Of a stretch of DNA of 37,879 nucleotides, positions 1-28,176 are shown piece after piece (position 1 is the stretch's first letter; every line of letters begins with the position of its first letter). Position numbers and translations under genes: made by a program. Below the pieces are notes generated by a model. The model did not search any database, had not been told where the DNA came from, and saw only the letters and a program-made list of their open reading frames with translations. This DNA comes from a virus, in the IMG/VR virus record IMGVR_UViG_3300017744_000042, positions 1-37,879 of that record, one strand, 5' to 3'.

Positions 1-454
1 TTCCAGTAATTGTTTCTGTTTGTGTAATAATATCTGCAGGATTTATCATAGCAAAATCTACTGCACCTGCAGCTATTGTTGTAGCTACATCTTGTGTAGC
101 TGAAGCTAATGTACCTGTAATATCTCCTGTTAGAGCTATGTCATTAACTCTGTCATGTATATCTTCAAAATGTTGTTTAACTACTGCAAGTCTTACCTTA
201 GTACCTGATGAGTGTGTTGGACCACTATTATCACCATCTAAATCTCTGTTAATAGTAGCAGCAGCGTGGTCATCTCCTGTTGACCAAAAAACTATTTCTC
301 TGTTGTCACTATCAGGGTCTATTACAAAATATGCAGGACTATTAATTCCTGGGTCTGCAGCTAAATTCATTGTACCTGTTGGTCCACCGGCACTTAACTG
401 TGCAGCTAATGTAGTTTCAAAAGCGTTTACTATATTAGATTCTTGTGCTGTCAT
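1..454 (-). CDS. tail-fibre-like structural protein, partial (3' end beyond window)
   Basis: The reading frame opens with ATG at 454 behind a good ribosome site (GGAGAAGA) and stays open for 151 codons to the left edge, so the C-terminus is missing. The N-terminal half is acidic and polar. It has a segment like those that begin phage fibre or neck proteins (FVIDPDSDNREIVFWS near residues 43-58) and then a Thr/Ala/Gly-rich stretch (TGDITGTLASATQDVATTIA, near residues 110-130) typical of trimeric fibre shafts. It lies 24 bases downstream of the 640-aa Asp-box protein and is last in the visible morphogenesis operon, where adsorption proteins usually sit. The exact role is inferred from composition and position; no catalytic motif is visible. 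Confidence 0.7.
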   Translation of the reverse strand, partial: MTAQESNIVNAFETTLAAQLSAGGPTGTMNLAADPGINSPAYFVIDPDSDNREIVFWSTGDDHAAATINRDLDGDNSGPTHSSGTKVRLAVVKQHFEDIHDRVNDIALTGDITGTLASATQDVATTIAAGAVDFAMINPADIITQTETITG

Positions 455-478
455 TCTTCTCCATTATATACTATTTTT

Positions 479-2401
479 TTATCCAAATCTCATTATTCCA
501 AAACCATTTACTCCAGGTACATTACCTGATGTAACTTGGCTAAAGGTTGTTTGTCTTGTACCTCTGACAGTTAGTATAGCATATTGTGTGACGCTGCCAA
601 CATTTGGATTACTTTGTATTGGGTAGCTTATCTTTTCTACAACACCTCTAACTATCTCAGCAGGGTCATATAGTTCTAAAGTTATAGCAGCTCCTTCTTT
701 TTCTTTTAAAGATTGATAAATAGTTTCACCTAAATTCTTAACAAGGATTGGTTTTCTGTATGGTCTCTCTACTCTATCAGATATGTTTACTGGTATCTGT
801 ATAACTATAAGCTCTGGTCTTGCTAATGCTCTTACTTTAAATGCTTTAAACTTAGGAGAGTTAATTTGATTAGGAGATTTTAAAACAACTTTTGCTACAA
901 CATATCTTGCTACCCTTTGTAGCTGTACTGCTTCTTCACCTACTCCTGATAAGACGTTAACTTCTAAATCCCAAGTACTATCAGTACTATCGTTAATAGA
1001 TTCGTACTTATTTGATAAATGTAATTCTACAGTATTGCTATCTGATAACGCTTCCACCTCAAGACTTGCTTCTACAAACTGTTTATTTTCCGCAGTGAAG
1101 AAATCTGCAGGGGGTGCTATAAGAAAACCTTCTTGTTCATATGTAGATGTTTGTTTGTATACACCATCTGAACTTACAGTGAACAAAAACTTTTCATTAA
1201 CACTTACTATATTATGTACAGCTCCACCTGCACTAGCTTTATAATACCTAGCTATACCTGATGTAGGTAAATAATATCTCCATAGAAAACTTGTACTAGC
1301 TGTTTCTTTTACACCTATGTAAACACTATCCCTAGTAGTAAACAAAGCGTTAGGTGAATTATCTTGACTGTCTACATCCCATTGTTTTATTAATTGATTT
1401 TGTGTCAATATAAATAAATCCTCTGCGACTGTTAGAGTTGCACGGTATAATCTTCCTATCACTTTAGTACCTGTCTGTACTTCTTTAGTTCCATAAAAGA
1501 CTATACCCTGTGACTCTACTATGCAAGTAGGTTGCTCTCCTGATATTTCTGTCTGACCCTTAGCAGTAAATGTTCCACTAACATCTTTGATTGAATAGAT
1601 TCTACCATCAGTAGCAGTTGCTAATACTACAGCTCCTGCATCTGTTACATCTGTAAAGCTTTGTCCTGAAGGCAATGTTATTATTGCAGAGCCAACAGTT
1701 GTAGCTCCATCATAAGAATGTATTGAACTCCCTATAGTAACTAAGAACTGACCTTTTACTGAAAATATTTTATCATAAATAGCAGCAGACATTTTCTGAG
1801 TAGAGGTGCCACCACTTGTTAGTGTTTCTATTTCACCTGCTGAACCATTGTTAGCTGTTATATAAAGTAAGTCACCATGTGTAGCTAAACCTTTTATTTG
1901 ATAACCTGCGGTTAAACCTTCAGTCACTGTACCCCATGTATTACCACCATCATCTGACTTGTATAATGTTTCATCATCAGATACATATATCCTTGTGCCT
2001 ACTACTGCCATGTGATTTACAGCAGAAGATAATGCTTGACCTTTTTCTGTAGTGTGTAGTAACTGTACGTTATATCCCTTACCTAAGTCTGTATTAAAAA
2101 CATCTACACCTTGGCTATCCCAGAATCTTCTTACATCATCTGGTTTACCATTAGCCTTATGTGCTGAGTCTAAGTTAGAACCACCACTAAAATCATTCCT
2201 AGAATATATACGTCCTAAGTTAGATGTAAAGTCTTCAGGGTTTTGTCTGACATTAACTCCAGCATCCTGGACTTCTGATGACTGTATAGTCATCTCCCTA
2301 CCACTACCTATAGCACTTCTATATAATTGATTGTCTATACGAAAGTCATAACCTTTTCTTTTAGGGTTATTTTCTTCTGCTTGCGTAGTAAGTCTAGGCA
2401 T
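479..2401 (-). CDS. Tail-associated protein with Asp-box (beta-propeller-like) repeat
   Basis: This is a 640-aa protein. Residues 149-156 read SDDGGNTW, a textbook Asp-box (BNR) motif. Around it is a long series of beta-strand-like segments with the rhythm of a propeller (for example GTRIYVSDDETLYKS, GDLLYITANNG, KGQFLVTIGSSIHSYDG), ending near residue 440. The C-terminal 200 residues look like a separate beta-rich domain, possibly for attachment to the tail. Its ATG at 2401 overlaps the previous stop by one base (TAATG), so translation is coupled. A receptor-facing or tail-hub role is inferred from its place between the connector-like gene and the fibre-like gene. I see no sialidase catalytic residues, so the repeats are probably structural. 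Confidence 0.75.
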   Translation of the reverse strand: MPRLTTQAEENNPKRKGYDFRIDNQLYRSAIGSGREMTIQSSEVQDAGVNVRQNPEDFTSNLGRIYSRNDFSGGSNLDSAHKANGKPDDVRRFWDSQGVDVFNTDLGKGYNVQLLHTTEKGQALSSAVNHMAVVGTRIYVSDDETLYKSDDGGNTWGTVTEGLTAGYQIKGLATHGDLLYITANNGSAGEIETLTSGGTSTQKMSAAIYDKIFSVKGQFLVTIGSSIHSYDGATTVGSAIITLPSGQSFTDVTDAGAVVLATATDGRIYSIKDVSGTFTAKGQTEISGEQPTCIVESQGIVFYGTKEVQTGTKVIGRLYRATLTVAEDLFILTQNQLIKQWDVDSQDNSPNALFTTRDSVYIGVKETASTSFLWRYYLPTSGIARYYKASAGGAVHNIVSVNEKFLFTVSSDGVYKQTSTYEQEGFLIAPPADFFTAENKQFVEASLEVEALSDSNTVELHLSNKYESINDSTDSTWDLEVNVLSGVGEEAVQLQRVARYVVAKVVLKSPNQINSPKFKAFKVRALARPELIVIQIPVNISDRVERPYRKPILVKNLGETIYQSLKEKEGAAITLELYDPAEIVRGVVEKISYPIQSNPNVGSVTQYAILTVRGTRQTTFSQVTSGNVPGVNGFGIMRFG

Positions 2402-3393
2402 TAACTGTATGCTATCTTATTAATAGTTACTGGTTCAGGGTACCTAGCTCTTAAATCCTTTCGTGCTTGTGTTATCAAAGCAGTTTGGTATTGGAGTAAA
2501 GAGTTTCTTATTGTTGATGCAGAGTTAACAGGAAATGTATTTACACTCATTTGGTCTGTTATATAGTCTGCTGTAGCTGTTGGTATATCTCTACCTGATA
2601 TTAGTTGAGCTGCTACTCCTGTCATAATAATAGGTTCGTACTCGTCCTCTAAACCTACTGTAGATAGAGTATCATCTTCTTGTGTAGGAGTTACAAACTT
2701 CTTTTTAAATGTAACAAATACAGTATGACCTGAAGCAACACTGTAAAACTGAACTGCTTTAACATTATCAGGACCATTGTTACTATAAGTAATTGTTTGA
2801 GAAACACCGTCATCATCTGTGTATGTAAAAGGATTTGGTAAATCTATTAACTCACATGAAACACCAGCAAATACTGTACCTGTTTCATCTGAGCCTGCAG
2901 AAAAGTTTGTGTTTTGTGATATAGATTTAATTGGTGCTATCAAATGATTATCAGTAGAACCACTAAGAGGCACGTAACCTACCTTAGCTACTATTGATTT
3001 AGTTTCTACTGCAAATAAAGTTGGATACAAATTTTTAATTTGGTCACATACTGCATCAAAAACATTCTTACGTGGAAACACAGGAGCAATTTTAATTACT
3101 TTATCTACAAGATGTACTTTTGCTGTTGTACCTAATACTCCTCTAGCAACAGTGACAGTATTGTTTACTGTGTCTAAAGATTTACACCTCATTAATTCTT
3201 GTTCACACTCAATGATAGTTCCTGCATCCATTGCATCTTCTTCTTCTTGTGTTAACAAATCTCCATCAAAAACTATTTCAGTTGCTGTTGCATTAACTTC
3301 AGTTTTTAATGTAGTGTAAGATTGTAAATCATCCATAGGTTCTAAGTATTCCCTATAAACTCTATTTACTAAGTCACTTATTTTTTGACTCAT
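2401..3393 (-). CDS. Head-tail connector-like structural protein
   Basis: This is a 330-aa protein that starts with ATG at 3393 in a TAATG overlap with the preceding small gene. The first 25 residues are helical and amphipathic. The middle is beta-rich (residues about 30-100 with the stretch TVTVARGVLGTTA, and 130-240). The C-terminal 80 residues return to helix. This helix-beta-helix plan, and the position just after the capsid and small head genes and before the tail genes, fits a connector or tail-tube-like adaptor in short-tailed phages. I do not recognise a named family, so the role rests on synteny. There are no enzyme motifs. Confidence 0.6.
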   Translation of the reverse strand: MSQKISDLVNRVYREYLEPMDDLQSYTTLKTEVNATATEIVFDGDLLTQEEEDAMDAGTIIECEQELMRCKSLDTVNNTVTVARGVLGTTAKVHLVDKVIKIAPVFPRKNVFDAVCDQIKNLYPTLFAVETKSIVAKVGYVPLSGSTDNHLIAPIKSISQNTNFSAGSDETGTVFAGVSCELIDLPNPFTYTDDDGVSQTITYSNNGPDNVKAVQFYSVASGHTVFVTFKKKFVTPTQEDDTLSTVGLEDEYEPIIMTGVAAQLISGRDIPTATADYITDQMSVNTFPVNSASTIRNSLLQYQTALITQARKDLRARYPEPVTINKIAYS

Positions 3394-3578
3394 TACGCTG
3401 CTCCTTCTTCAATTAATGATGTAGCGAAGATTGCTTGACCAAAGCTACCTAATGCAAACCATCCATCATTGGATGTATTGTTTGGATTAACAATAGGGAA
3501 CGAAGGTTCTAATGGTTGGTCAGGAATACTTTCTATATTAAGATTTCTTCCCTCTTTTAATATTAAGAGCATACTCAT
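3393..3578 (-). CDS. Small virion-operon protein, unknown
   Basis: This is a 61-aa protein. It lies between two structural genes, starts nine bases after the stop of the 109-aa gene and ends in a one-base TAATG overlap with the 330-aa gene. A ribosome site (AGGAGAT) precedes the ATG. The sequence is mildly acidic, rich in Asn, Pro and Ser, and has no membrane segment or known motif. Tight coupling on both sides is the main reason to accept it as real. A small head or neck component is a guess from position. Confidence 0.6.
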   Translation of the reverse strand: MSMLLILKEGRNLNIESIPDQPLEPSFPIVNPNNTSNDGWFALGSFGQAIFATSLIEEGAA

Positions 3579-3587
3579 AAGTATCTC

Positions 3588-3917
3588 CTAACTGTGTCTA
3601 AAGTGTAATACTATTTCTCTATCTGCTGCTTCGGTACCATTAGATGTAACTCTAATGTATCCATTGCTAGCAAAAGCCCAGCCACTAGGGTCTACTCTTA
3701 ATACATCTCCTGCTGAAACAGTGTAACTTACTTCAGTACCATCTGTTTCTTTTACGTCCATCCATGTAGTATTGTCCATTGAAAAATCAAATGTAATGGC
3801 AGAACCTGTCATAGCTGCAGGAAACTGTACACCACAGAGAAGCATTCCCTCTGTTTGTACACCTAAGCTGTCATTGTTATCTGCTGAAACATCTATTAAA
3901 GCTAATTTACTTATCAT
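3588..3917 (-). CDS. Beta-rich head decoration-like protein
   Basis: This is a 109-aa protein directly downstream of the major capsid gene. It is mostly short beta strands (ITFDFSMDNTTWMDV, YTVSAGDVLRVDP, GYIRVTSNG), the look of a small beta-sandwich. Its position and size match head decoration or stabilisation proteins. The ATG at 3917 has an AAGGAAG ribosome site. The 65-base gap from the capsid stop holds a small GC-rich hairpin that could lower its expression relative to the capsid. The function is inferred from context. Confidence 0.6.
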   Translation of the reverse strand: MISKLALIDVSADNNDSLGVQTEGMLLCGVQFPAAMTGSAITFDFSMDNTTWMDVKETDGTEVSYTVSAGDVLRVDPSGWAFASNGYIRVTSNGTEAADREIVLHFRHS

Positions 3918-3939
3918 ATCTTCCTTACTATAGCAGAAG

Positions 3940-3965
3940 AAAAGGGCGGAGGTGGAGTTCCACCC
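3940..3965 (-). terminator. Possible weak terminator or attenuator after the capsid gene
   Basis: Just after the capsid stop, GGTGG (3951-3955) pairs with CCACC (3960-3964) around a four-base loop. Read on the minus strand, the hairpin is followed after a few bases by CCCTTTTCTTCT. The stem is short and the T run is broken, so at most it is a leaky terminator or an mRNA 3' stabiliser that keeps capsid transcripts in excess. Confidence 0.3.
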
Positions 3966-3982
3966 TAATCTTCAATATTAAA

Positions 3983-5107
3983 TTATGCTACTGACTGAAT
4001 CTTGCAGTGATATGAAGGAGGTCCGAACTCGAATCCCATCTCCATATAAATTGCTTTACCAATTCTAGCGTTGGCATCTTGGTCTATGTCACGAACAAAC
4101 ATTGTTCCATATCCTGGGATATTTGTAAACACTGTTTGAATGTAAGCTAAGTCCAAGATAAAAGCAGAACCTGCAGGCATGATATCAGGGTCAATAACCA
4201 TTAGTCCGATTGAACCAAATGGTGTAATGATTGTATCGATATCGACACCAGCAACATTTCTATCTCTAGGAATAATTGTTCCTGCTATGTCAACTGTACC
4301 TTTAACAAGTTCATTGTTAAGGTCTAGTAATTGCTTTGGACTCACGCAGAGTACTGGCTGCGACATTGGTGCATGGTTGTCATACATTCTCTTTAAAGCA
4401 CCTGAAATGGTTTTAAAGGATATGACTTGTGATGCTCCAGTTCCGTCACCGTCTACGTCATTGTAGTAACAGTTACCACCTAATGGGTTAACTGCTGCAG
4501 CATTGTTGGCGTTCTTGTTTATGGTAATCCATACATCAAGACCATACATTTCTCTAGTTCCTGAACCAGGTGATGTGTTTGCACCATCTGAGAAAGAACC
4601 ATTGAATGCAAACCACTCAACTTCTCTTGCTACTTTTTCCATTGCTTTTTCCATTTGGAAAGCAAATTCGTCTGCCACTGGGCTACCACCAAAAAGAGCC
4701 AATTTATCACCAGCTGTGTTGCCACCTGTTCCATTGGAAAAGTTTGCAGCATTTGCTGATAGGTCGAAAGGATTTTGGTTTTGGGTAGATGCCAAAGCGG
4801 TATATGTCATTTGTACACCCTTGTGGAAAATCTGAGTTACATATGTGTATGCAGCTCTATCTCTTCCAAGATATTCTGTTGGTGCATTACCTTCTTGTGC
4901 CTTAGTTGGTTCTGAAGAAACGGTTGCATTATCTTCTACTTGGACTTGCCAAAATGTAGAGTTCAATACTTTACCGCCATTCAAACCACCAACTGCACTA
5001 AGCAAAGGTGTTCTTTGACCACCGACTTTAAACAATTCACCAGTGAAGTTATTAATCTGTTGGGCATAAATAGGTGCTGTTGCACTTAATCCACTTATAC
5101 TTGCCAT
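3983..5107 (-). CDS. Major capsid protein
   Basis: This 374-aa protein forms the head shell. It resembles the DUF5309/SU10-type major capsid proteins: an N-terminal arm (ISGLSATAPIYAQQINNFTG), then a stretch about TPLLSAVGGLNGGKV, a polar extended loop (ATVSSEPTKAQEGNAPTEY), a long spine-helix region with KAMEKVAREVEWFAFNGSF, and a C-terminal beta region with FGSIGLMVIDPDIMPAG. The length is ordinary for an HK97-fold capsid protein. The upstream neighbour is scaffold-like, as usual. The ribosome site is strong (AGGAGAAG before ATG at 5107). Its G+C is visibly higher than its neighbours and its codons look optimised, as expected for the most abundant virion protein. Confidence 0.9.
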   Translation of the reverse strand: MASISGLSATAPIYAQQINNFTGELFKVGGQRTPLLSAVGGLNGGKVLNSTFWQVQVEDNATVSSEPTKAQEGNAPTEYLGRDRAAYTYVTQIFHKGVQMTYTALASTQNQNPFDLSANAANFSNGTGGNTAGDKLALFGGSPVADEFAFQMEKAMEKVAREVEWFAFNGSFSDGANTSPGSGTREMYGLDVWITINKNANNAAAVNPLGGNCYYNDVDGDGTGASQVISFKTISGALKRMYDNHAPMSQPVLCVSPKQLLDLNNELVKGTVDIAGTIIPRDRNVAGVDIDTIITPFGSIGLMVIDPDIMPAGSAFILDLAYIQTVFTNIPGYGTMFVRDIDQDANARIGKAIYMEMGFEFGPPSYHCKIQSVA

Positions 5108-5132
5108 TGTTATCTTCTCCTATTATAAATTA

Positions 5133-5600
5133 TTACTTGTCTTCTTTAAGAGTTTCCATCATACGCAACTTAGCGTTAATAGAATCTCCTACTTTTGTGT
5201 TGGAATCTGTTACAAATTTCATAAACTCATCTCCTATGTTTTGTGGATTTGAATTTACACCAAGTTTATTGAGCTGCTCTACACGTGATTGAGCTTCTAC
5301 TACATTAGAAGCAAGGTTGTTGCTAGGCTGTTCAGAACTACTAACTTCTCCAAACTCTTGAGCAACAAAGTCTTTGACTCCATCAACAGTAACTTCACCT
5401 TCATAGAGTTTTACCACAGCTTTACCTATGCCCTTCTCTGCATTAAGTCCTAATGAACTTAAGGCTGAGTTCATAGCATCAGTTTTAAACTGTCTGTTTT
5501 CAGCTTTGAGCTTTTTAAACTCTTCTCTAAGTTGTTTAATATTATCTGTTGGTTCGTCCACTACTGTAGTTTCCTCAACTTGTTCTGTATTTTTTTCCAT
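5133..5600 (-). CDS. Capsid scaffold protein
   Basis: This is a 155-aa, highly charged protein immediately upstream of the capsid gene. Residues about 18-45 are a coiled coil (IKQLREEFKKLKAENRQFK). The rest is helical and Gln/Asn-rich, with a basic C-terminal helix (NAKLRMMETLKEDK) like those that bind the capsid shell. Size, charge and position are characteristic of scaffolds that guide head assembly and then leave. The ATG at 5600 follows GGAGA. It is the first gene behind the strong promoter at 5767-5794. Confidence 0.8.
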   Translation of the reverse strand: MEKNTEQVEETTVVDEPTDNIKQLREEFKKLKAENRQFKTDAMNSALSSLGLNAEKGIGKAVVKLYEGEVTVDGVKDFVAQEFGEVSSSEQPSNNLASNVVEAQSRVEQLNKLGVNSNPQNIGDEFMKFVTDSNTKVGDSINAKLRMMETLKEDK

Positions 5601-5674
5601 ATTTTTTTCTCCATCTTTTCTCTAGCATATTGAAATTCCATAACATTAATCGCTAGGTAATTAAAAGGAATTTT

Positions 5675-5708
5675 CACAAGGGTTTGCGAATAACATATAA
5701 CGCACCTC
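5675..5708. repeat. Copy 1 of a shared leader element (GAGGTGCGTT...CGCAA...ACCCT)
   Basis: On the minus strand this leader contains GAGGTGCGTT, a 12-base spacer, then CGCAA, ACCCT and TGTG. A second copy with the same blocks in the same order lies at 28093-28123. Both can fold with CGCA pairing to TGCG. This copy lies in the 5' leader of the scaffold and capsid transcript, between its promoter and the first gene. The rest of the 5601-5779 gap holds only the promoter and no credible gene. Confidence 0.4.
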
Positions 5709-5766
5709 GGCAACGTTATCGAATTGTGTGACCCTATTCTAAGCGGAACTCACCACGCTACTATAT

Positions 5767-5794
5767 ATAGTACTACTATTTAATACTGTGTCAA
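5767..5794 (-). promoter_or_regulatory. Sigma70-like promoter for scaffold and capsid genes
   Basis: On the minus strand, a perfect -35 hexamer TTGACA (5794-5789) is followed by a 16-base spacer and TACTAT (5772-5767), five of six matches to the -10 consensus. The -35 lies inside the last codons of the 356-aa gene. The predicted start near 5760 gives a leader of about 160 bases before the scaffold ATG. It would raise expression of the capsid block above the rest of the late operon using host RNA polymerase. The -10 lies in a palindrome (ACTATATATAGT). Confidence 0.65.
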
Positions 5795-6850
5795 GCCTAT
5801 AACAGAACCTGTTTGTGATTTAGCTGCACCAGATTGTACAGAGCTACCAGATAAATTCTGTGCTGTAACGTACTGTATTTCAGAAGCTATAGCCTCATCA
5901 CCAAATATCTGTGCTTCTAATACACCCATAGCTTTACCTAGTGTTACATCTCTACGTTGTCTTCTTTGCATACGAGCCAAAGCTTTAGCTGTTGCTGATG
6001 CTGTAGCAAAAGTCTTTTCTGATTGGTTTGTGGTTACACCTGCACCAGTAAGTCTTTGTACTGCCTCTAAGTCAAGTGCATCACCTGTAGTTCCTGTGTA
6101 TACTGCACCTAGCTCTGAAGCATTAAGCCTACCTTTAAGTACATCTTCACTTATGTTAGGGTCTATAGCTAATGCTAATAAACTTTCTTGTCCCATAGAT
6201 ACAGTAGTGCCTGTCTCATTTGTAAAATATTCATTGTAAGAATTTATAATAGAATTTTGTAATTCATCATCTACTCTATTAATAACTCTGTCGTGTATTA
6301 ACTTTACTCTACCAGCGTAGCTTTCAGGAGATGTATTGTTAGCTACTGCTCTAGCCCATGCTGATTTACCATTCTGTGAAGCATAACCATTAAGTCCATA
6401 AGCTGTTAAAGTTGTTAATACTTTTTCTAAACCTGATATGTATTCAGATTCACTCATCTTTAATGCACCAGTATTAGGGTCTACAATATTAGCAAACACT
6501 CTCTTGTATGCATCTTTACTATCTGTACCAAATCTCATTTCTGCTAATGCAAACTCTGCCTTACCACCGCTATTGTTATAACCTGATACATAGGAATCAA
6601 CTAACGTATTAGCATCTGCACCACCATACTTTTGTAACCAAGGTAACAATGTATAAACTTGTGTCCGAGTAGTAGTCGTACCATCTGTTGATGCACTAGG
6701 TGAACTTGAACTAGCATCCATTGCATTTGCTGCTGCTAATGCTTCATCATAAGATTCTGTGTATCCATTAGATAACATGTCATCCAGACTAAGACCTGTA
6801 CCTTCTAACTCTATACCTGTTAAATCATCTTTTCTATATAACGTTACCAT
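5780..6850 (-). CDS. Probable internal virion protein, unknown family
   Basis: This is a 356-aa, largely helical protein with a low-complexity Ser/Thr linker at residues about 45-62 and a conspicuous basic patch near residue 298 (MQRRQRRDVTLGKAM). It starts at 6850 in a TAATG overlap with the preceding gene. The region TGALKMSESEYISGLEKVL and the following helices resemble the EF/helical repeats seen in ejected or internal virion proteins, but I cannot name a family. Its place in the block between lysozyme and scaffold suggests it is packaged or forms part of the portal-proximal core. Confidence 0.6.
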   Translation of the reverse strand: MVTLYRKDDLTGIELEGTGLSLDDMLSNGYTESYDEALAAANAMDASSSSPSASTDGTTTTRTQVYTLLPWLQKYGGADANTLVDSYVSGYNNSGGKAEFALAEMRFGTDSKDAYKRVFANIVDPNTGALKMSESEYISGLEKVLTTLTAYGLNGYASQNGKSAWARAVANNTSPESYAGRVKLIHDRVINRVDDELQNSIINSYNEYFTNETGTTVSMGQESLLALAIDPNISEDVLKGRLNASELGAVYTGTTGDALDLEAVQRLTGAGVTTNQSEKTFATASATAKALARMQRRQRRDVTLGKAMGVLEAQIFGDEAIASEIQYVTAQNLSGSSVQSGAAKSQTGSVIGLTQY

Positions 6851-7311
6851 TATCTAATCACTACCCCTCCCATAGACTGCGACAAAGAACTAGCTAAGTC
6901 AGCCATGTATTTCTTATTACCAGTTTTGTATCCATAATCTAAGAATGATTTCTTTGCATCTTCATAACTCATATTGATTGAGTCCATAAATATCGAACTT
7001 GTTTCATCTGGTTTGTCACCAAGTATAGAACTGTACTGGTCTCTGTAATTACCTACAACTAAACCATAGTTCAATCCTTTGTCTGCGTATCTCTCATACA
7101 TTGGGTCACTATCAAATATGTTTTGAAACTCTTGCATACCTGCATTAGTATCTCTGGAATACAGACCTACTAATCTATTTTTTTCTGTTTCATCTAATGT
7201 ATTAAATTTACCTACACCAATTACTCTTTTTAATTCTGACAACGCTAAGTTAGATTGTTTGAAAGTATCGAAGTCTACAAACGCATTAAACTGTCCTGGG
7301 TTATCTACCAT
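6850..7311 (-). CDS. Virion-block protein, probably a 5'-truncated or split gene
   Basis: This is a 153-aa protein counted from the only canonical ATG, at 7311. That start has no ribosome site. The same frame is open upstream for 37 more codons with coding-like content (a stretch like FENYLGHKLGIDGYKIAKD), back to the TGA that ends the 282-aa gene at 7423-7425. The upstream gene is in the same frame, so the two may be halves of one 473-residue protein interrupted by a single TGA. Other options are a non-canonical start such as the ATT at 7411-7413, or a sequence error. The protein is helical with no known motif. Its stop overlaps the next ATG (TAATG). Confidence 0.55.
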   Translation of the reverse strand: MVDNPGQFNAFVDFDTFKQSNLALSELKRVIGVGKFNTLDETEKNRLVGLYSRDTNAGMQEFQNIFDSDPMYERYADKGLNYGLVVGNYRDQYSSILGDKPDETSSIFMDSINMSYEDAKKSFLDYGYKTGNKKYMADLASSLSQSMGGVVIR

Positions 7312-7422
7312 AGTATCTACTGTTTTAAATACATCATATAGGTTACTATCCTTAGCTATCTTGTAACCATCAATACCTAATTTATGTCCGAGATAGTTTT
7401 CAAATTGTTCAATCTCTATCTC

Positions 7423-8271
7423 TCATATTACTAATGAAGTTTCTAATGCTTTATAAAGTTCAACATTATCTTGTTTAAAGACATCTGCATTTAAACCTAG
7501 TGCTCCTAAAGCAGTATCTATACCTGTTGTTACTTTCTTTTCTAAAGATATGTAGTCTTGATTAGTTCGCGTTACAAGCTTACCATCTACAACAACATTG
7601 TACTTGCCAGGGTTGTCATCTAATGAAGCTATTGTTGCATTTAAATAGTCTAACTTTAATGTAGTAAATCCTTTACCTACACCTGCTAATGTAAGCTGTT
7701 CGGTTGTTATTGGATTTCCACTTGTTAAAGAATTAAATATTAAACCTATCGCAGGCATTCTTCCTTCTACTTCTTCATACAAGAAAGGATACAGTTGTTC
7801 TAATCCTTCCATCGTTTGACCTATCCAGTCACCTAGCTTAAGTCCTTCTGGTGTTCTAGCCACTGTAAAGTTTTGCATTGTAAGTCTTTCTCCACCAGTA
7901 CTACGTATTATATCTGCATCAGGTAAAACAGTAGAAATACTTGGACCATTACGTTCATTACCTAAACTGTCTGCGTCCCAAGTACTTGCATATTCTAAAG
8001 GTTTTAGACCTACAGCTTCATACATTATATAGGTTGAACCACCTGTAACAGAACTTACATCATATAAGAAAAATACTCTATTAGCCTCATCTTGGTACAC
8101 GTAGTCAGCAACCATTCTATCTGAATACATCCAGCCAACGTTTCTTGTTTTAGGTGGTATAGCAGAGTTAGCTTCTTCACGTGTTTCAAATAACGGAGTA
8201 CCTGGTGATATTCTACTACTAGGATATACTGGTTGTACTACTCCGTCTGGGTCTATATAAAAGTTAGACAT
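7423..8271 (-). CDS. Virion-block protein, unknown; may continue past its TGA
   Basis: This is a 282-aa protein starting at 8271 in a TAATG overlap with the 1514-aa gene. The N-terminal 130 residues are beta-rich (YIDPDGVVQPVYPSSRI, then repeated tyrosine-rich strands); the rest is helical. No family was recognised. It ends in TGA, and the frame beyond the TGA stays open and coding-like into the next gene, so the visible C-terminus may not be the biological one. Position suggests a virion component acting with the lysozyme and giant proteins. Confidence 0.6.
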   Translation of the reverse strand: MSNFYIDPDGVVQPVYPSSRISPGTPLFETREEANSAIPPKTRNVGWMYSDRMVADYVYQDEANRVFFLYDVSSVTGGSTYIMYEAVGLKPLEYASTWDADSLGNERNGPSISTVLPDADIIRSTGGERLTMQNFTVARTPEGLKLGDWIGQTMEGLEQLYPFLYEEVEGRMPAIGLIFNSLTSGNPITTEQLTLAGVGKGFTTLKLDYLNATIASLDDNPGKYNVVVDGKLVTRTNQDYISLEKKVTTGIDTALGALGLNADVFKQDNVELYKALETSLVI

Positions 8272-13745: not shown

Positions 13746-15449
13746 TTACTTTCCTCTAACGTATCTGCCAATATTACCGATGTTGGTAAGAAGATTAACA
13801 AAAGTATTATTATAAAGAGCTGTATCCCTTTGACCTTGTAACATATCTCCATACTTATCCTTTACGAACTCATCAAATTCTTGACCAATAACAGCACCCA
13901 TTTGTTCTTGTGAAACTGTTCCTTGCAATTCCAAATCATTTTCGTATGGCATGCCTGATTGTGCTGCTTGAGCTCTTTGTCTTTCAGCAGCTATTTGTGC
14001 TTGTATATTACTCTCATTTGTTTTAAAGTTTTCTTTTTGTATATCATAAGAAAGTTTACTAATGTAATCTGCATAAGCAGACAATTCGTAATCACTAGCT
14101 GGTCTACCTAATCCTTCTTCAATCGCACTACCTATAGTAGCTTTGACAGAATAAGGACTTGGATTTATATATTTAAACAATGATTGGTAATTGACACCAG
14201 CACCTTCTGATGCTGCAAACTTATCTTTACCATAACCATAATCTTCTAAAGTATCTTTATAGAACTCTTTAATAAATACAGTTAAGTTTTGTGCAGTTGC
14301 ACCTGGTGTTAACAATATAGAATATAAATCTTCTTGTGATATAGTCTCACCATTTAGATTAAATCGTGACATTGCAGACTCTATAGCCTGTACAGTACCA
14401 CCATCATTATTATCTAGAACACCATATACGAAACTAAATGGTTGTAAAAATCCTGATTCTACTAGAAGTAATTGTACTTCCATAATCTCTTCAGGACTAG
14501 CATTAGCAAACAACTGTCTGCCTAATCCATATTCGTATAAAGGTTCTTCACCTTCTCCGTAAACTTCTGGAATAACTTCACCTGCAATACCGTAGTATTC
14601 TCCACCAGTAAGACCCATTGCTACGCTGCTTAAATAAGTATCTTCAATAGGTACTGGTCCAGTCACAGAACCTACCTCTTGACCTTTTAGGTTCTGTAAA
14701 AAATCTGCAGGGTCTATGTTATTTTTTTCTAACATAATGTCCAAACGTTTTAAGTATTCTGTTTTATCTATTTTCCCTGATTCTAATTCAAGCAATAAAC
14801 TTTCAGCATTGTCTTTATCGTATAACATAAATGCAGATTCTTTGTAAGCATCTTCTCTAGCTTGCTTTTCATAGTAAGCTTTACGTGCTAAGTCTGATTC
14901 TTCAGAGTAAGTGTTCAGGACTTCTATGTTCGCATCTTCAAAACTAACTCTAATATCTGCAGGGTTCTTACCCTGGAGTACTGCTTCTATAAGTAAATCG
15001 TGATGGTCTCCTGCAGCTACAGCTATCTTTCTTAAATCTTCTGGTGGGGTTATCTCATAGATATAATTGAATCCTTCTTGTACTTCTGGTTCTAAATTGT
15101 CCCACTCTCTACCTAAAGAGTAAGATATCATGTTTGTGTACTGTGCATAACTCATACCAATGTCTTCTTTTCTAGTTGGCAAATCCTCTTCACTATATGA
15201 AGTTGTTGCAACCCCTGATACATTCTTTATTGTGTTACCAATAATATCACCAATAACAAAATTAGGAATCCAGCCGAATATTTTCCAAAATTCTTTTAGT
15301 TTTTCTTCGTTAAGATTTTTCTTTTTAAAGTTTTTATCTCTAAATATATCTAAAAGGTTACCTTTAACTTCTACATAAGGTATATTTTTTCTGTTATTTA
15401 AAACATCTTCTAAAGCTTTTTGTTGTTCAGGCGTTAATTCTTCAGCCAC
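13746..15449 (-). CDS. 567-aa internal virion protein-like, helical
   Basis: This protein starts with GTG at 15449, overlapping the TGA of the 2316-aa gene by eight bases, an arrangement used several times in this genome. It is strongly acidic and helical throughout. Features: a Lys-rich N-terminal segment (about 1-50), a single hydrophobic stretch at about 53-66 (FGWIPNFVIGDIIG), a Gly-rich turn region at about 260-300, and a block GLGRPASDYELSAYADYISKL near 440 of a kind common in phage tape-measure and internal core proteins. It is flanked by the giant virion protein and the lysozyme, so it is probably a companion ejection protein. No enzyme motif is visible. Confidence 0.6.
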   Translation of the reverse strand: MAEELTPEQQKALEDVLNNRKNIPYVEVKGNLLDIFRDKNFKKKNLNEEKLKEFWKIFGWIPNFVIGDIIGNTIKNVSGVATTSYSEEDLPTRKEDIGMSYAQYTNMISYSLGREWDNLEPEVQEGFNYIYEITPPEDLRKIAVAAGDHHDLLIEAVLQGKNPADIRVSFEDANIEVLNTYSEESDLARKAYYEKQAREDAYKESAFMLYDKDNAESLLLELESGKIDKTEYLKRLDIMLEKNNIDPADFLQNLKGQEVGSVTGPVPIEDTYLSSVAMGLTGGEYYGIAGEVIPEVYGEGEEPLYEYGLGRQLFANASPEEIMEVQLLLVESGFLQPFSFVYGVLDNNDGGTVQAIESAMSRFNLNGETISQEDLYSILLTPGATAQNLTVFIKEFYKDTLEDYGYGKDKFAASEGAGVNYQSLFKYINPSPYSVKATIGSAIEEGLGRPASDYELSAYADYISKLSYDIQKENFKTNESNIQAQIAAERQRAQAAQSGMPYENDLELQGTVSQEQMGAVIGQEFDEFVKDKYGDMLQGQRDTALYNNTFVNLLTNIGNIGRYVRGK

Positions 15450-18400
15450 TGAATACTCCTCCGAGGTTCTCTTCCTCTATTTCTAATCTAAAAATATCAT
15501 ACCACAAATAGTAAAAGTCAGGGTGTTGCATCATAAGTTGTTTAGATAATGTACTTAAATACTGTCTTGCTTCTGCAGCTTCTGACCTACTTAAACTAGC
15601 ATTAGCTCCAAACTGTGAACGTATAGATTGAAGTACATTTTGTCTAGCTATTAAATATTTCATTGCACCTTGAATAGAAGGTAAGTTCTCTATAGCAACT
15701 TGGCTACCATCAGGCATCTTAACTGTTTTACCACTTTCATTTGCTAACAAAGCTTGAAACTGTGCTATCTTAGAATCTATATCCATTGACTTAGCTACTG
15801 ATGATGTAGTCCCATAACCAACAAATTTCTTTTGTAAATCTAATTTAGTTAAATACAGTTGTTCAAATTTTTTATCCATTGGTACAGATGCATAAACATT
15901 AGTATCTAAAAGTAATCTTCTAGCATTTTCATAAGCTAAAGAACCTTGTGCCTGTCTTATAGAACGTTTAAATTCAACGTCAGTTAAATCTACTCTTCTT
16001 CCCTCTGTAAAAGCATCAGCCCATTGTTGATAATCAAACTCACCCAAAGGACTGTCAGGGAATAAGTAATAAGATATGTCAGGATACTTGTCCATAATCT
16101 CTTTGTTTGCTTTATAAAAATATCCACCTTCTGTTGTATAAGCTGTTGCTTGTATCTTTTTAGATTTAGAAACAAGTAATGCACTAGGGTCAAATCCAAA
16201 TGTCCTTATAAACTCAGCAGTAGCTGTAACTCTGTCTCCATCTACACCAGCTAACATTTGATAATATGCGTCAGAAAATAAAGTATCTGCAAAAAACTTA
16301 TGTTGTGGGTCATTTGCTTTAGCTTCCCATGGGTCTAAAAATGCTGCACCATCTGGTCCAACTTCATATTCATAATTAACTACAGCAGGTGAAGGAGCAA
16401 CGAATGCTATAAACGCTTGGTATTTTAACATATTGTTAGCTAACTTACGTGCTTGTTCTAAACTTTTTTGTTCTGCTTCTGGAGTACTGTCATCATAAAT
16501 ACCTGAAACAAACATAGCCCTTTGTACTTCTTTAACTCTGTTTGCGTAGGCTCTTTGTAGTTGTGGACTTCCACTACCACTTGTAGAACGTAATCTATTT
16601 AACCAAGTTGGCAAAGCTGCCTCTACATAATAACTTGGGTCTAAAGGTGAGTACTGTGGTCTACCATAAGGAAACAACGCTTGGTCAATTCCTTTAGTAG
16701 AAGGTAATACTGCTGATGCAGGTAGTGATACTAATGGTCCTAAACCAGGTACTACTGAACCAGCTACCATGTTTAATCCGCTTGCATAGCCTTCTATTCT
16801 TGCATTAACGCCAGGAGCATCTATATCTTGAGCACCTGTAATAGGATTAGTAATTGAATTTTCTGGACTAGGATTTCCTAGTTGTCTATCTAAACTATTG
16901 TTTAATCCAAAACCAGGTGCGTTATACATTTCCTCTCCACTTTGTGGGTCAGTAGTAAAGAAGCCTTCATCATCTTCTTCACCAAAGATGCTAGGCTTTC
17001 TTGCACCTTCAACACCTCGTTGTAGTTTTCTACCGAATAATGTTTTCTGATTCTTTAATAGCCTTGTCCACGTACCAGCAATCTCTAAATAAACTTCTGC
17101 GAAAGGAAAAGCAAGTCTTAACATATCAGAGATAGCATGTCTCTTGTTTAAATCATATAGTAATGATTGCGTTTCTTTTAAGGAATAAGCTTTAGCTAGT
17201 GTATCTATCTGCTCTAAGTCATCTATACCTATTTGTTTACTAACATCAGCAAAGCCCATGTTTTCTAAATTTTTAAGATACTTGTTACCACTACCACCTT
17301 TAGGTAAACCTCTCATACTTTTTTTAGCAGCTCTCATAATTTCTCTTCTAGCTACTTCATCCATATTGGCGTATGCACTTTCTATAAATCTCCAGTAGTA
17401 CTGTCTAAATGCAGGCGACCTTGACAACTCATTAGTAGATGCACCCATTAAAGTAGAGAACAATGTTTCTAGAACTCTGTTGTATTGACTTACTCTGTCT
17501 CCATCCATATCAAATCTTGAAGCTTTAACCTTAAAGGTATTGTCTATCAAGTCGCCTTTAAAGTTTTTAAGCCAAGTACTATAAGAATTAAATTCACTTC
17601 TTGTCATGTTTCTATTAAAATTTCTTTCTACATAATCATTAGCTTTCTTACTAAAGATAGAAACTTTATTAGCAGCACGGTCATCTAAAGCATTTATAGA
17701 GATATGTTCTATCAACTCTTTGTCTCCTGCATTTTTAATTACATAGTCTATTGGGTTTTTTATCTCTAGAACATTTGGGTCTGAAGTATTTATAAATCGT
17801 TTAGTACCATTAGGTAGTATCTCGTATGCTTCGTATTTACCACCAGTTTTAAGATGTATACGTGCAACTATAGAATCGATGTACGAATCTGAATAAGCTT
17901 TGTTTTTATTAATTAAATCTTTTAGATATCTACCTTCATCAGTAGAGTTACCAACATAAGCTTTACGCCATTTTGATAAGTCTCCATTCCAGAAAGATTG
18001 TTTAACTGCATCTACTGACTCTTTATACTTAATAGGATTTTTAACTGGGTCTATATTTATTTTTGCTAATAAAGGAGCTATAGGGTCATCAGCTAGCTGT
18101 AACAACTCTGAGGTCCAACTACTGTAAAAACCTGATGCTTCTTTATTCTTTGTTATGAAACCTCTACTTCTTCTAGGGTCCATACCTAACATCACACCAT
18201 TATTCGTTTGTGACATAGCTTCTTGATGAAAGAAACTTTTTTCCATAGTCTCATCAAATATGTCTGTTCCACCTCTACCATAATTTTCAGTTAACCAATC
18301 TCTACTCTTTTCTCTTTGAGTCATAAACAGTTGTCTATTCCTTTGTGGACTTCTACCAAATATCCAAGCAAAAGCAGAGACAGGATGTGTGAATACGTTG

Positions 18401-21400
18401 TCTAGTCCTTCTGCCCACATTCTAATTTGCTCTTCTCCTACGACCCTTGTAACCCAAGCTGGACGCAATAGGATAGAAGGTTTCCAAAGCATCTGCATAT
18501 ATCCATCACCAATCAAAGAAACCATACCATCTGTAATTTGTGCTATGTCATCACCATCTGTATTAAGTTTTACATTTACTCTTGTCTTCCTTACTAACCT
18601 AGATATAGATTCAGCCATGTTTCTTTCTGCACCTTTTACTTCTAATTTAGCTAAATCAGTAATCGGTTTAGATAATAATTTATCGTAGGCTTCATCTGTT
18701 ATGTTTCTACTTCTACCAGTTAATCTAAGGTGTAAATCTCTCATAGGTCTAAATACACGTAGGAACAATCTAGCATCAGGCATTGGTATGTAACCTTCAT
18801 CCCAATACTCAGATAACAAGTGTGCTGTAGCTCTAGGTCTATTAACAGTTTTAAGACTTCTACCTGAAGTTGTTTTAGTAAACTCTTCATAAATAGCATT
18901 GATTACTTCATCACTGCTTTCATCAGTAGGTACTTTACGTATCTGTTCTAAGTTTTCTTCTAATACAGTTTTTAATTTACCTAAAGTTACTCTTTGATTT
19001 TTACTTTGGTAATATAATAAATCTTCCATTATATTTTTTTGTAATGCTTTTTGTACATTATCTATATCTGAACTACCTACAACATTTAATTTCTTTACAC
19101 GATTTCTATAAATAAACTCTTGCATTTCTTTTATTTGTTTCTTTGAAGTAGTTTTAGATAAATCAATAACTATGTGTGGTTTGTTACCTTGATATGCACC
19201 TGTCTTTAAAGTACCACGTACTCCTAAGTCTGCATTATCTAGATACCCTTTAATTGATTTTAACTTTTTAGATGTCGTACCTGAATAAAATATAATAGTT
19301 CCATCAGATTCCTCAATGTTTCTTTTTACAACAGATGCTAAATCTTCTTTAGGGTTTATTGAACCCCAGTCTTTATTCCAATAATCAGGGTCATATACAT
19401 CTTTGCTTTCTAATATCTCATTAGCTTTCTTAAAAGATGGTACAACTTCTGATATCTCACCATCTAATTTAGCAATATTTTGTGCAATTCTTTTTCTATC
19501 GTTTATAAGATTTTGTTTAACTATGCCAAGTGAAGGACCAGAAGAAACTTTAGTTACATCATCTACTGACTCTTGTACAGTTTCTTTATCTATTAGTTCA
19601 CCTTTTTTACCTGAACGAAAATCTCTACTTCTGTATCTTGTAGTTCTTTGTATTTCTTTATTAACTTGATTTAATGCATCCTCTTTTAATTTATTTAAAC
19701 CAATAATAATTTCTGTATCTTCCATTTCATCAGTACCATAATTTTTACGGTACCAATCTTTATTTACTTTATTAGGTGCATACTGTGCTTGAACTCTAGC
19801 TAATTGTGCGTCAAGGTTCTCTATAGCTTTTTCAATAGTATTCATTACTTTTTTAGAATCTTCTATAGTTTGTATTTTATTTTGTACTTGTAATCTTTCT
19901 TTCTTAGGCAATGCGTTTATTTCTTCTTGGCTTCCACCTAGGGCTTCGTCTCTAAGATTGCTATATTCTTTCTGTGCAGTTAATTCATCTACAGCTTTAC
20001 CATCATCTAAGTTAAGTTCTCTCATTCTTGGTGATTGGTTGTCGTATCTAGCTCCTTTAGTCACTTCAAAATCAAGTAACTTAAAAGCTCTTTTCTCTGT
20101 CTGCACTAAGCTAAACAATTCTTTATTAGTCATACCAGTTTTAGACAAAACCATTTCTAACTGTGTAGCTTTCTGTGGATTAGTAAATACATCCATAGGT
20201 ATGCTTGTGACACCTTTAACTCTTAAATATGTATTTTGATATCTATAAACTTTATTTGTAACTTTGCCTTTAAAAAACTTAAAGCCTTCTGCTGTATCGA
20301 CAAATGCAGTAACTGTACCATCTGCTATTTCTTTAGTTTTTTCAAAGAAGTAAGGTCCATATTTTTCTGATAAGTCAAATACATTCTCAGGGTCAGATAA
20401 AGTACCATCTGGTATAGTGTATCCTTTAGAAACTTTACCACCTGTAGCAACACCTATTTCTTCAGCTATATCTAATGCATTACGTTCTGCACCTTCATAA
20501 AATCCAGATATTACTTCATCTATTAATATTCTAGTTTCTACAGCAGTAGGGTCGTTTGATATCTCTTTAACCTGTGCAACTATATCTTCTATTTCTTTTG
20601 TAACGACTGTTGTGTCGCCTTTAAATTTTGCTAATACTTTTTCAATAACTGTAACTGTGTCGTCATCAGTTAATACTTCAGAAAATTCTTCTTTCATCAT
20701 CTTAGGTATTTGTTCAAACTTAGAACCAGGGAACCATTCAAGTTCACCTAACTCATTAACAAAGTATCTATGTGTCTCATCTACGCTTGCCATCCATTTT
20801 TTAATACCTTTCATTAATTGTGGAGGTAAATCTATAGCTTCAAACTTTTGTCCAATATGACCAAGTACATCATTCCAAATGTCTAACACGTCTCCCATAT
20901 TTTTTAATGATTGTGCTTCATCAGGATTTAATATTTGATTTTCAGCTAGTTCTGCTAGTCTCTGCAATGCAGGTTCAGCAACATCATCATCTACTTTTGC
21001 CCACTTCATCCATTGTTTAAAATCAAAAAAGGATTGGTTTAAATCTTTAACATTTAATTTTGGTACAGGAAATTCTGCAAATATTCTACCTAGTGCACTA
21101 TCAGCTTGTGATTTACGAACTGCACCCATAAATCCTACTGCTTCTCCAAATTCTCCACCAACTAATCTACCTGCTGCACTAGAAACAGAACCTCTTAGTG
21201 CTAATGAATTAGGGTCTAGTCTTTTAAACTTTACAGCAGTTTCTATTGCTGGTATTAATAAATCAGTAACTTCTTGTGGTGAGTTAGCTTTCATTAAATT
21301 TTTATGTAATGCAGCATCACCTTGATTTTTTAACAAACGACCAACAGTGTCAAAGTTATCAGCTAATGCTATTTGTTCTACAATTTTTCTACCACCTTTT

Positions 21401-22392
21401 GTAGCAGTTAAATATTCTGTAGCAGAAGGAACGTGTATAGTTTTACGTACAGCATTATCTATAATTCCTGCACTTTTCAAAACATCAGCTTGTGATAGAG
21501 ACCTAACAGCTTTACCTGCTTTGTTTAGATAACTACCAACTAATATTGATGGGTCAGCTACTAAAGTAAAAGCACCGTCAATAATTCCTGACATAATATC
21601 GTAACCTTTTGTTCCTGGTTCAAATACAGTAGCTGTTAATGGTGCTGCTGGTGTTAGCTTACTTGTACCAAATCTAGTTTGTATAGTAAGACTTTCGTCA
21701 CGTTCTCTTTCGTTGTTAGTAATGTCTTGACCATAATAGGTTTGTATTATCTTTTTAGCTTCATCTTGGTCTACACCTCTACCTACTAATTCTTTATACA
21801 CATCTGTATCTTCAGCTAATGTAGAGTTAGGAAAGTATCCTTCACCTAAGTTAACCTTTTTACCTGCTGACAAATTCTGTAATGCTGTTCTACCTACAGA
21901 AGGTCCTAATATATCTCTTACTTGTCCAAGCTCATTACGTGCATCATTACTAATTAAAAGCTGTAGTGATGCACCTAATATTCCTTGACTGTCTCTATAT
22001 TTTTTTTGGTTTAAATATTTTTGATAAGCTAGTACAGGTTTTTTAACTATCTCATCTTGCACAGAATCAAATGCTGTAAACGCAGTTCTTATAGTTCCTC
22101 TACCTACAGACTTTACTCTATCCCACCAAGTCTTTTCAGAGTCAAGCCATCGTTCAACTATAGTTCCTATTTCAGGAGATTGTGCTGTTAAGTTCATTAA
22201 GGATGCACCAACTAATACATCTTTGGGTAAATAAAAATGTTCTCTAACTAAACCTTGAAGATTAGTAGCAGTCTGTGGTGCAGACTCAATCATACCTTGA
22301 ATTACTTTAGCTTGGTCTATCCTTGAATTTTGTTGGGTTTCTTCTATTTCATCTTGTACAGGAGATTGCCACCACCATCTTATTTCAGCCAT
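15442..22392 (-). CDS. 2316-aa giant internal virion protein with YpsA/SLOG-like segments
   Basis: This is the largest gene in the window and is rich in helix. Residues 627-664 (ISGFYEGAERNALDIAEE, then GVATGGKVSKGY and PDG) resemble the first half of the YpsA / putative molybdenum-carrier Rossmann-like (SLOG) fold. Residues 1025-1108 (NIEESDGTIIFYSG, GNKPHIVIDLS, RVKKLNVVGSS) resemble its second half. About 320 mostly coiled-coil residues lie between. At 1302-1324 is a LWKPSILLRPAW...GEEQIRM block of a kind found in large structural proteins of actinobacterial phages. A low-complexity Asn/Pro/Gly stretch is near 1800. Such proteins usually form an internal core and are ejected. The TGA stop overlaps the next GTG. 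The YpsA-like call is by motif order only. Confidence 0.7.
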   Translation of the reverse strand: MAEIRWWWQSPVQDEIEETQQNSRIDQAKVIQGMIESAPQTATNLQGLVREHFYLPKDVLVGASLMNLTAQSPEIGTIVERWLDSEKTWWDRVKSVGRGTIRTAFTAFDSVQDEIVKKPVLAYQKYLNQKKYRDSQGILGASLQLLISNDARNELGQVRDILGPSVGRTALQNLSAGKKVNLGEGYFPNSTLAEDTDVYKELVGRGVDQDEAKKIIQTYYGQDITNNERERDESLTIQTRFGTSKLTPAAPLTATVFEPGTKGYDIMSGIIDGAFTLVADPSILVGSYLNKAGKAVRSLSQADVLKSAGIIDNAVRKTIHVPSATEYLTATKGGRKIVEQIALADNFDTVGRLLKNQGDAALHKNLMKANSPQEVTDLLIPAIETAVKFKRLDPNSLALRGSVSSAAGRLVGGEFGEAVGFMGAVRKSQADSALGRIFAEFPVPKLNVKDLNQSFFDFKQWMKWAKVDDDVAEPALQRLAELAENQILNPDEAQSLKNMGDVLDIWNDVLGHIGQKFEAIDLPPQLMKGIKKWMASVDETHRYFVNELGELEWFPGSKFEQIPKMMKEEFSEVLTDDDTVTVIEKVLAKFKGDTTVVTKEIEDIVAQVKEISNDPTAVETRILIDEVISGFYEGAERNALDIAEEIGVATGGKVSKGYTIPDGTLSDPENVFDLSEKYGPYFFEKTKEIADGTVTAFVDTAEGFKFFKGKVTNKVYRYQNTYLRVKGVTSIPMDVFTNPQKATQLEMVLSKTGMTNKELFSLVQTEKRAFKLLDFEVTKGARYDNQSPRMRELNLDDGKAVDELTAQKEYSNLRDEALGGSQEEINALPKKERLQVQNKIQTIEDSKKVMNTIEKAIENLDAQLARVQAQYAPNKVNKDWYRKNYGTDEMEDTEIIIGLNKLKEDALNQVNKEIQRTTRYRSRDFRSGKKGELIDKETVQESVDDVTKVSSGPSLGIVKQNLINDRKRIAQNIAKLDGEISEVVPSFKKANEILESKDVYDPDYWNKDWGSINPKEDLASVVKRNIEESDGTIIFYSGTTSKKLKSIKGYLDNADLGVRGTLKTGAYQGNKPHIVIDLSKTTSKKQIKEMQEFIYRNRVKKLNVVGSSDIDNVQKALQKNIMEDLLYYQSKNQRVTLGKLKTVLEENLEQIRKVPTDESSDEVINAIYEEFTKTTSGRSLKTVNRPRATAHLLSEYWDEGYIPMPDARLFLRVFRPMRDLHLRLTGRSRNITDEAYDKLLSKPITDLAKLEVKGAERNMAESISRLVRKTRVNVKLNTDGDDIAQITDGMVSLIGDGYMQMLWKPSILLRPAWVTRVVGEEQIRMWAEGLDNVFTHPVSAFAWIFGRSPQRNRQLFMTQREKSRDWLTENYGRGGTDIFDETMEKSFFHQEAMSQTNNGVMLGMDPRRSRGFITKNKEASGFYSSWTSELLQLADDPIAPLLAKINIDPVKNPIKYKESVDAVKQSFWNGDLSKWRKAYVGNSTDEGRYLKDLINKNKAYSDSYIDSIVARIHLKTGGKYEAYEILPNGTKRFINTSDPNVLEIKNPIDYVIKNAGDKELIEHISINALDDRAANKVSIFSKKANDYVERNFNRNMTRSEFNSYSTWLKNFKGDLIDNTFKVKASRFDMDGDRVSQYNRVLETLFSTLMGASTNELSRSPAFRQYYWRFIESAYANMDEVARREIMRAAKKSMRGLPKGGSGNKYLKNLENMGFADVSKQIGIDDLEQIDTLAKAYSLKETQSLLYDLNKRHAISDMLRLAFPFAEVYLEIAGTWTRLLKNQKTLFGRKLQRGVEGARKPSIFGEEDDEGFFTTDPQSGEEMYNAPGFGLNNSLDRQLGNPSPENSITNPITGAQDIDAPGVNARIEGYASGLNMVAGSVVPGLGPLVSLPASAVLPSTKGIDQALFPYGRPQYSPLDPSYYVEAALPTWLNRLRSTSGSGSPQLQRAYANRVKEVQRAMFVSGIYDDSTPEAEQKSLEQARKLANNMLKYQAFIAFVAPSPAVVNYEYEVGPDGAAFLDPWEAKANDPQHKFFADTLFSDAYYQMLAGVDGDRVTATAEFIRTFGFDPSALLVSKSKKIQATAYTTEGGYFYKANKEIMDKYPDISYYLFPDSPLGEFDYQQWADAFTEGRRVDLTDVEFKRSIRQAQGSLAYENARRLLLDTNVYASVPMDKKFEQLYLTKLDLQKKFVGYGTTSSVAKSMDIDSKIAQFQALLANESGKTVKMPDGSQVAIENLPSIQGAMKYLIARQNVLQSIRSQFGANASLSRSEAAEARQYLSTLSKQLMMQHPDFYYLWYDIFRLEIEEENLGGVFSG

Positions 22393-28092: not shown

Positions 28093-28123
28093 CACAGGGT
28101 TCGTTGCGTCTACAACGCACCTC
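28093..28123. repeat. Copy 2 of the shared leader element
   Basis: On the minus strand this carries GAGGTGCGTT, a short spacer, CGCAA, ACCCT and GTG, matching the element at 5675-5708 in block order. Here TGCGT and ACGCA can pair around a five-base loop. It is the most GC-rich spot in this part of the region and lies upstream of the leftward operon. Confidence 0.4.
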
Positions 28124-28176
28124 AAGCGTACTATAAAAAAACATTCTTTTTTCTTACCTTTACTAGCAGTAGTGTG

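Follow-up and report, generated by a model that had tools for sequence, protein, structure and literature searches.

A conserved leader RNA with three predicted tandem pseudoknots ahead of the scaffold and capsid genes of uncultured phages

Short sequence words that recur in the same order at two distant intergenic places of a phage genome raise the question of whether these places are copies of one regulatory element and, if not, what each of them is. The question arises here for the minus strand of the uncultured phage record IMGVR_UViG_3300017744_000042 (37.9 kb, 35% G+C; its whole length of 37,879 nucleotides is called the window), in which GAGGTGCGTT, CGCAA, ACCCT and TGTG occur in this order at 5708-5675 (site 1) and 28123-28093 (site 2). 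Landmarks of the window include a terminase large subunit gene (24650-26566) and a 2316-aa ORF with a cpYpsA (SLOG) domain (15442-22392) on the minus strand and, among others, an exonuclease-like gene and a MoxR/CobS-like ATPase gene on the plus strand. Bases 1-8000 matched no phage record at the DNA level; the nearest named capsids are those of actinophages, with identities of up to 30%, and most of the distant capsid relatives in the phage collection belong to actinophages as well.

A preliminary description of this DNA had presented the two sites as a leader element shared with the divergent region, a compound motif unlikely to occur twice by chance. The letters were verified, and the ORF coordinates confirm that neither site falls in a firm gene and that both precede minus-strand ORFs, the one at 27329-27865 in the case of site 2; exact copies of GAGGTGCGTT in the window are limited to these two sites. 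The argument from chance failed, since 98 of 100 dinucleotide shuffles contained at least one comparable pair, defined as a shared 10-mer with six or more G/C after which two 5-mers recur in the same order within 32 nt, with 4.4 +/- 2.4 such pairs per shuffle. The window itself has 11, a number attained by 1 of the 100 shuffles; by coordinates, both copies fall in long ORFs for nine of the pairs and a single copy does for a tenth, and the flagged pair alone has neither copy there. This placement, together with the common letters, is what speaks for both sites being one regulatory element, for example an antitermination site before two operons, of the nut/put-like kind that several operons use. 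Against it, a covariance model of the site-1 leader matches the window once, at 5609-5776 with 143 bits, and not in front of several operons, site 2 being absent from its 103 hits with E values up to 10 and filters off. Among 22 site-2 regions with upstream sequence, the window included (L195, which lacks upstream sequence, left out, L200 represented by 281 nt only), GAGGTGCGTT stands at site 2 only in the window and in L189 and L198, both near-identical relatives, and L190 retains ACCCTGTG only; a promoter scan of the minus strand around site 2 returned none. By shuffles, covariance model and relatives, site 2 (28093-28123, minus strand) is a chance-level likeness and no leader copy, and the shared two-site element was rejected because its likeness is expected by chance and site 2 has neither conservation nor a model match; the one-element reading is hardly credible. 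What stands of the earlier description is the leader at site 1. Loss of the motif in relatives, which that description itself had named as refuting it, applies to site 2, whose letters are not kept; at site 1 the structure is kept although the letters are not.

Relatives of the site-1 region were gathered through the capsid gene and through the leader itself. The best 80 of 143 matches in a capsid search were taken as loci, 76 of them with upstream sequence, and further capsid scans gave a nearly identical contig set. By sequence string, 36 of these 76 upstream regions (from the best 80 of 143) belong to type A, as does the window, 36 to type B and four to neither; leaders of two three-pseudoknot types thereby precede the scaffold gene in 72 of the 76 capsid relatives. 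Two of the remaining four (L065, L072) form a type C, matched by the type-A covariance model at 53 and 47 bits and also read by eye, and the other two (L043, L073) a type D, classed by eye alone. A 17-base leader pattern gave 81 stretches in the virus collection, and a scaffold homologue lies behind 76 of the 80 pattern-found leaders checked, starting 31-109 nt downstream (the preset range) in 63 and 19-30 nt downstream on the same strand in 13; for the remaining four the available sequence ends within 110 nt.

On this comparison, site 1 is well supported as a piece of a conserved folded leader RNA of about 150 nt that would form three tandem H-type pseudoknots, all on the minus strand. Pseudoknot 1 (5728-5759) combines helix P1 (5759-5756/5745-5742, AGCG/CGCT) with loop helix P2 (5753-5750/5731-5728, GTGA/TCAC). 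All four pairs of P2 and three of the five of P1 change on both sides in the type-A alignment; P1 of the window was assigned by eye, its row being one of 6 of 57 with gaps at four of the five P1 pairs. Pseudoknot 2 (5677-5719), within which the flagged stretch 5708-5675 falls, is built from P3 (5719-5713/5703-5697, ATAACGT/GCGTTAT), where all eight pairs change on both sides and 96.5% of cells are paired, and from a loop helix between 5709-5705 (CGAGG) and 5681-5677 (CCTTG). This loop helix, given as CAAGG/CCUUG for type A, is 100% paired with three of its five pairs invariant, and its variation consists of one G-U change (4 rows) and one C-G to U-A change (2 rows). The pieces first noticed thus take their places in the fold: GAGG (5708-5705) lies in the loop strand of pseudoknot 2, GCGTT (5703-5699) belongs to the 3' strand of P3, and CCTTG in ACCCTTGTG (5681-5677) pairs with that loop strand. 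Pseudoknot 3 (5622-5672) comprises P4 (5672-5667/5639-5634, AATTCC/GGAATT) and P5 (5656-5652/5626-5622, CTAGC/GCTAG). P4 is 91% paired with double changes at two of five pairs, but some rows are displaced on this alignment, that of the window among them, and the window's P4 coordinates were set by eye; P5 is 100% paired with four of five pairs invariant and one double change in a single row (L028). The loop nucleotides AUAGGG and UUUAAUUACCUAGCGAUUA around the pseudoknots are highly conserved. A small ORF running through site 1 (50 aa, 5561-5713, listed mechanically) was rejected as a gene, its frame being open in only 5 of 57 leaders.

The type-A structure was drawn by eye on L057 and counted on the MAFFT alignment A1 of 57 distinct rows (69 collected segments, less one truncated and three chance ones, gave 65, of which eight were merged as identical). 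Of 1791 cells, 96.9% pair, versus 33-48% when the structure is slid by 1-3 columns, a control that favours the drawn structure because this was drawn by eye on sequences that were later counted. Double changes affect 19 of 32 pairs and 171 cells, neither number being reached in 500 shuffles; one of the five measures, 'further pair types', gave no excess, as 64 of 500 type-A and 498 of 500 type-B shuffles reach the observed value. With the alignment thinned to 11 rows at 80% identity, 18 of 32 pairs are still double-changed and 95% of cells pair. One row (L226) breaks six pairs on the alignment, and nine further rows, the window included, break three. The type-B structure, drawn on L027 and counted on 29 leaders, has the same layout, with 93.5% of 1097 cells paired (35-50% when slid) and 96 double-changed cells; here P3 is invariant, and P1, P2, P4 and P5 vary. 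Type-A P5 and type-B P3 give little covariation because they hardly or never vary. The type-A model misses type-B leaders and the type-B model misses type-A leaders at the loci given, the likeness between the types being one of layout. Across 37 capsid-linked loci P2 reads GCAG/CUGC in 17, ACGA/UCGU in eight, GUGA/UCAC in five, UCGA/UCGU with one mismatch in four and CCAG/CUGG in three, and on the capsid tree the P2 type must have changed at least 12 times, as must the P3 type, recombination being possible.

G-U cells outnumber A-C cells by 89 to 11 in type A and by 58 to 10 in type B, an excess that points to RNA and to the mRNA strand. As far as comparative sequence goes, the helices are demonstrated, strongly for P2 and P3 and less so for P5, together with the mRNA-sense strand and the position before the scaffold gene, and a leader RNA structure is almost certainly real. 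Nested folding gave no sign of it in the window, where the single-sequence minimum free energy is no better than that of shuffles (z -0.42, 66 of 200 as good; nested folds only), and Rfam release 15 yielded no matches for the window and seven relatives at gathering scores or for the site-1 region at E<=1. The window leader illustrates that an RNA of such kind can escape both nested single-sequence folding and Rfam.

Signals on either side place this RNA between a promoter-like site and a ribosome-binding site. Upstream lies a sigma-70-like promoter (5767-5794, minus strand) with TTGACA (5794-5789), 16 nt and TACTAT (5772-5767), which agrees with the consensus at 10 of 12 positions and is weak evidence by itself, the chance mean being 1.1 per region. 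In 57 of the 65 type-A segments exactly 7 nt separate P1 from the end of a -10-like hexamer taken from a list chosen by the authors, and a TTGACA-like -35 stands at 15-17 nt in 44 of 65, mostly at the short spacing of 15 nt (35 segments). With this nearly fixed distance between -10 and P1 the message would start at P1, and the expected start in the window is at or just before P1. Downstream, a Shine-Dalgarno-like GGAG (5609-5612, minus strand) stands 8 nt before the ATG at 5600; GGAG begins 7 nt past P5 in 48 of 65 type-A segments and ends 6 nt ahead of the next ATG in 45 of 65, and the end of pseudoknot 3 is about 17 nt from the AUG in most relatives and 21 nt in the window. The first ORF behind the leader (5133-5600, minus strand, 155 aa) belongs to phrog_7813, a family of unknown function, and is likely the scaffold gene, a name inferred from its position before the gene for the major head (capsid) protein (3983-5107, minus strand, 374 aa; phrog_1328, E 7.5e-28).

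The promoter also touches the inverted repeat ACTANNNNTAGT, of which the window holds seven copies versus 2.55 expected (2 of 100 shuffles reach seven); one, at 5760-5771, overlaps the -10 of the capsid promoter, and three more (28162-28173, 28422-28433 and 29499-29510) lie in or near the divergent region. ACTANNNNTAGT is a possible operator. Its abundance and its overlap with the -10 are what could be said for the conserved leader consisting of DNA-level repeats, such as operators or a packaging signal, and not of RNA; helices that interleave and G-U cells that exceed A-C cells fit RNA and not DNA, and this alternative is very improbable.

We infer that transcription starts from the promoter-like site and that the leader acts in cis and post-transcriptionally on the amount of scaffold and capsid. 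Our main reading, to which we assign a probability of roughly three in four, is that site 1 forms the central part of a folded leader at the 5' end of the scaffold-capsid mRNA, and that this leader would control scaffold and capsid output in cis. The supply of scaffold relative to capsid needs tuning in phages, and the structured leader would span the message from its expected start to just before the Shine-Dalgarno. The likeliest mode would be a translational operator or a ribosome-docking structure. Pseudoknot 3, which in most relatives ends about 17 nt before the AUG, would end at the upstream edge of a 30S footprint, so that its folding, or the binding of a protein to it, would gate initiation, the scaffold protein being the first candidate; pseudoknot 1, at the extreme 5' end, would protect the mRNA against degradation. 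Control of translation in some form is slightly favoured. The main rival, stability alone, with a 5'-end pseudoknot that blocks 5'-dependent decay of an abundant mRNA and has no regulatory role, agrees with the 7-nt distance from the -10-like hexamer to P1 that 57 of 65 segments show, by which the RNA would begin with structure, and with the abundance to be expected of a capsid message. Two more pseudoknots reaching up to the Shine-Dalgarno and long invariant loops exceed what such a cap needs, however, and this explanation is unlikely.

The choice of the scaffold protein as candidate regulator of its own synthesis comes from the way leader types are distributed. Identity to the window scaffold is 50-97% in type A (n=36) and 26-37% in type B (n=36), with no overlap, while the identity ranges of the capsids do overlap (80-100% and 76-88.5%, respectively). 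In an all-against-all comparison scaffolds share 47-100% within type A, 23-44% between types and 39-100% within type B, the last range (30 of the 36 type-B scaffolds) slightly overlapping that between types. Leader type thus follows scaffold type and not capsid type, which could be plain linkage of neighbours. The tracking makes scaffold autoregulation the first candidate and suggests that the scaffold protein may read its own leader, although linkage may also explain the association.

A riboswitch that senses a metabolite or ion to control late expression would account for the highly conserved loop nucleotides AUAGGG and UUUAAUUACCUAGCGAUUA, and candidate structured motifs, manA and wcaG, are reported to be carried by marine phages (PMC2864571). 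The lack of an Rfam match tells against it, as do the type-B leaders, whose other loop sequences in the same layout would be odd for one shared ligand, and the covariance model matches only 2 of 42 genomes of the family to which the one matching metagenome-assembled genome (MAG) belongs; a riboswitch is quite improbable. The sole type-A leader match in the genome collection is contig C30 of this Actinomycetota MAG, G031 (L291/L292), on which the same series of ORF lengths appears twice, about 43.9 kb apart. Rather than an integrated prophage, the contig is probably a phage genome whose assembly ran on beyond its start, and as a self-repeating phage contig it makes the MAG match a sign of binning, not of infection. 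The second match in the family (G070, a weak 27 bits) was rejected as a coding region by eye, and none of six phage proteins matched there.

Among known systems, the capsid leader would work most like the leader pseudoknot of T4 gene 32. The H-type pseudoknot of that mRNA leader precedes the gene under its control, at a distance of 67 nt from the start codon (PMC3014915), and a 2010 review considers it perhaps the only viral case. Both are H-type pseudoknots in the leader of a phage gene, here by comparative sequence only; T4 gene 32 has one pseudoknot and is a non-structural gene, whereas three precede scaffold-capsid genes here, and binding of the own product is established in T4 and a candidate in our case. 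The operator of rpsO (S15) likewise has one pseudoknot. It is a translational operator whose pseudoknot is controlled by the gene's own product (PMC3014915), a cellular ribosomal protein in contrast to the phage scaffold-capsid genes considered here. The timP mRNA of an enterobacterial type I toxin shares the upstream position of a pseudoknot, which is essential there for translation initiation (PMC11228461). It differs in being controlled by an antisense sRNA, in having one pseudoknot and in involving no phage capsid gene. The dicistrovirus intergenic (IGR) IRES precedes the capsid ORF, and its pseudoknots are interlocked. As a triple pseudoknot it binds and brings in the ribosome directly (PMC12221177). 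Three pseudoknots thus stand before capsid genes in both, a likeness of layout only. The IRES belongs to a eukaryotic RNA virus and initiates at a non-AUG codon, unlike the tandem pseudoknots, Shine-Dalgarno and AUG found here; IRES-type initiation without start signals does not apply, GGAG and ATG following the leader at near-fixed spacing. Among the papers listed in our literature search, none was recognised as being on the capsid-operon leader.

A broader proposal, tentative and held with considerable doubt, is that these leaders may form a viral cis-regulatory RNA class that Rfam lacks, in which three tandem pseudoknots in a modular row would gate scaffold-capsid translation in DNA phages and the scaffold protein or the assembling procapsid would read its own message. 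The class would include at least two families (A and B), between which the sequence would have been replaced with the layout retained. If the leaders work as proposed, uncultured marine phages would commonly control the assembly of their virions after transcription in this way.

Three further observations were made along the window and its relatives. A leader segment (5668-5703) is 81% complementary over 36 nt to capsid codons IFHKGVQM, the antisense of which is 4797-4832 on the plus strand, a possible long-range pairing. Compared with 150 leader shuffles the pairing stands out in four of six loci (scores of 18.5 in the window, 20.5 in L003, 19.0 in L066 and 16.0 in L074, with shuffle maxima of 15, 14, 13 and 12) and not in L010 and L028; compared with synonymous-codon shuffles of the capsid, none of 60 reaches the pairing in 7 of 22 loci (p 0.10 for the window). 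Eight of the 22 (L006, L007, L010, L012, L022, L024, L028 and L041) have it weakly or have lost it, and synonymous capsid sites at the pairing segment are not conserved (rank 314 of 362 windows, type A). In the plus-strand gene region, a hairpin-like repeat occurs as two identical 47-nt copies (30278-30324 and 30394-30440) whose starts are 116 nt apart.

Finally, in the terminase operon a second structured leader RNA, absent from the window, precedes the homologue of the ORF at 27329-27865 in 17 of 21 relatives (L193:1014-1106, L133:290-379, L208:1936-2028 on the minus strand and 14 more loci). A different leader stands at the place of site 2 in the window, L189, L198 and L190, and L199 has another gene. 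For this second RNA, a search of 15 site-2 loci at E<=1 gave no Rfam match. Its layout is GUCCUUGGGUACUGACUUUGUGGUAAUCCCAGUCC-hairpin-GCAGUCAGC...UCUUACCUGUAAC, and over 15 distinct rows (L201 left out) 95.8% of 240 cells are paired and 36 are double-changed, albeit with no G-U and three A-C cells.
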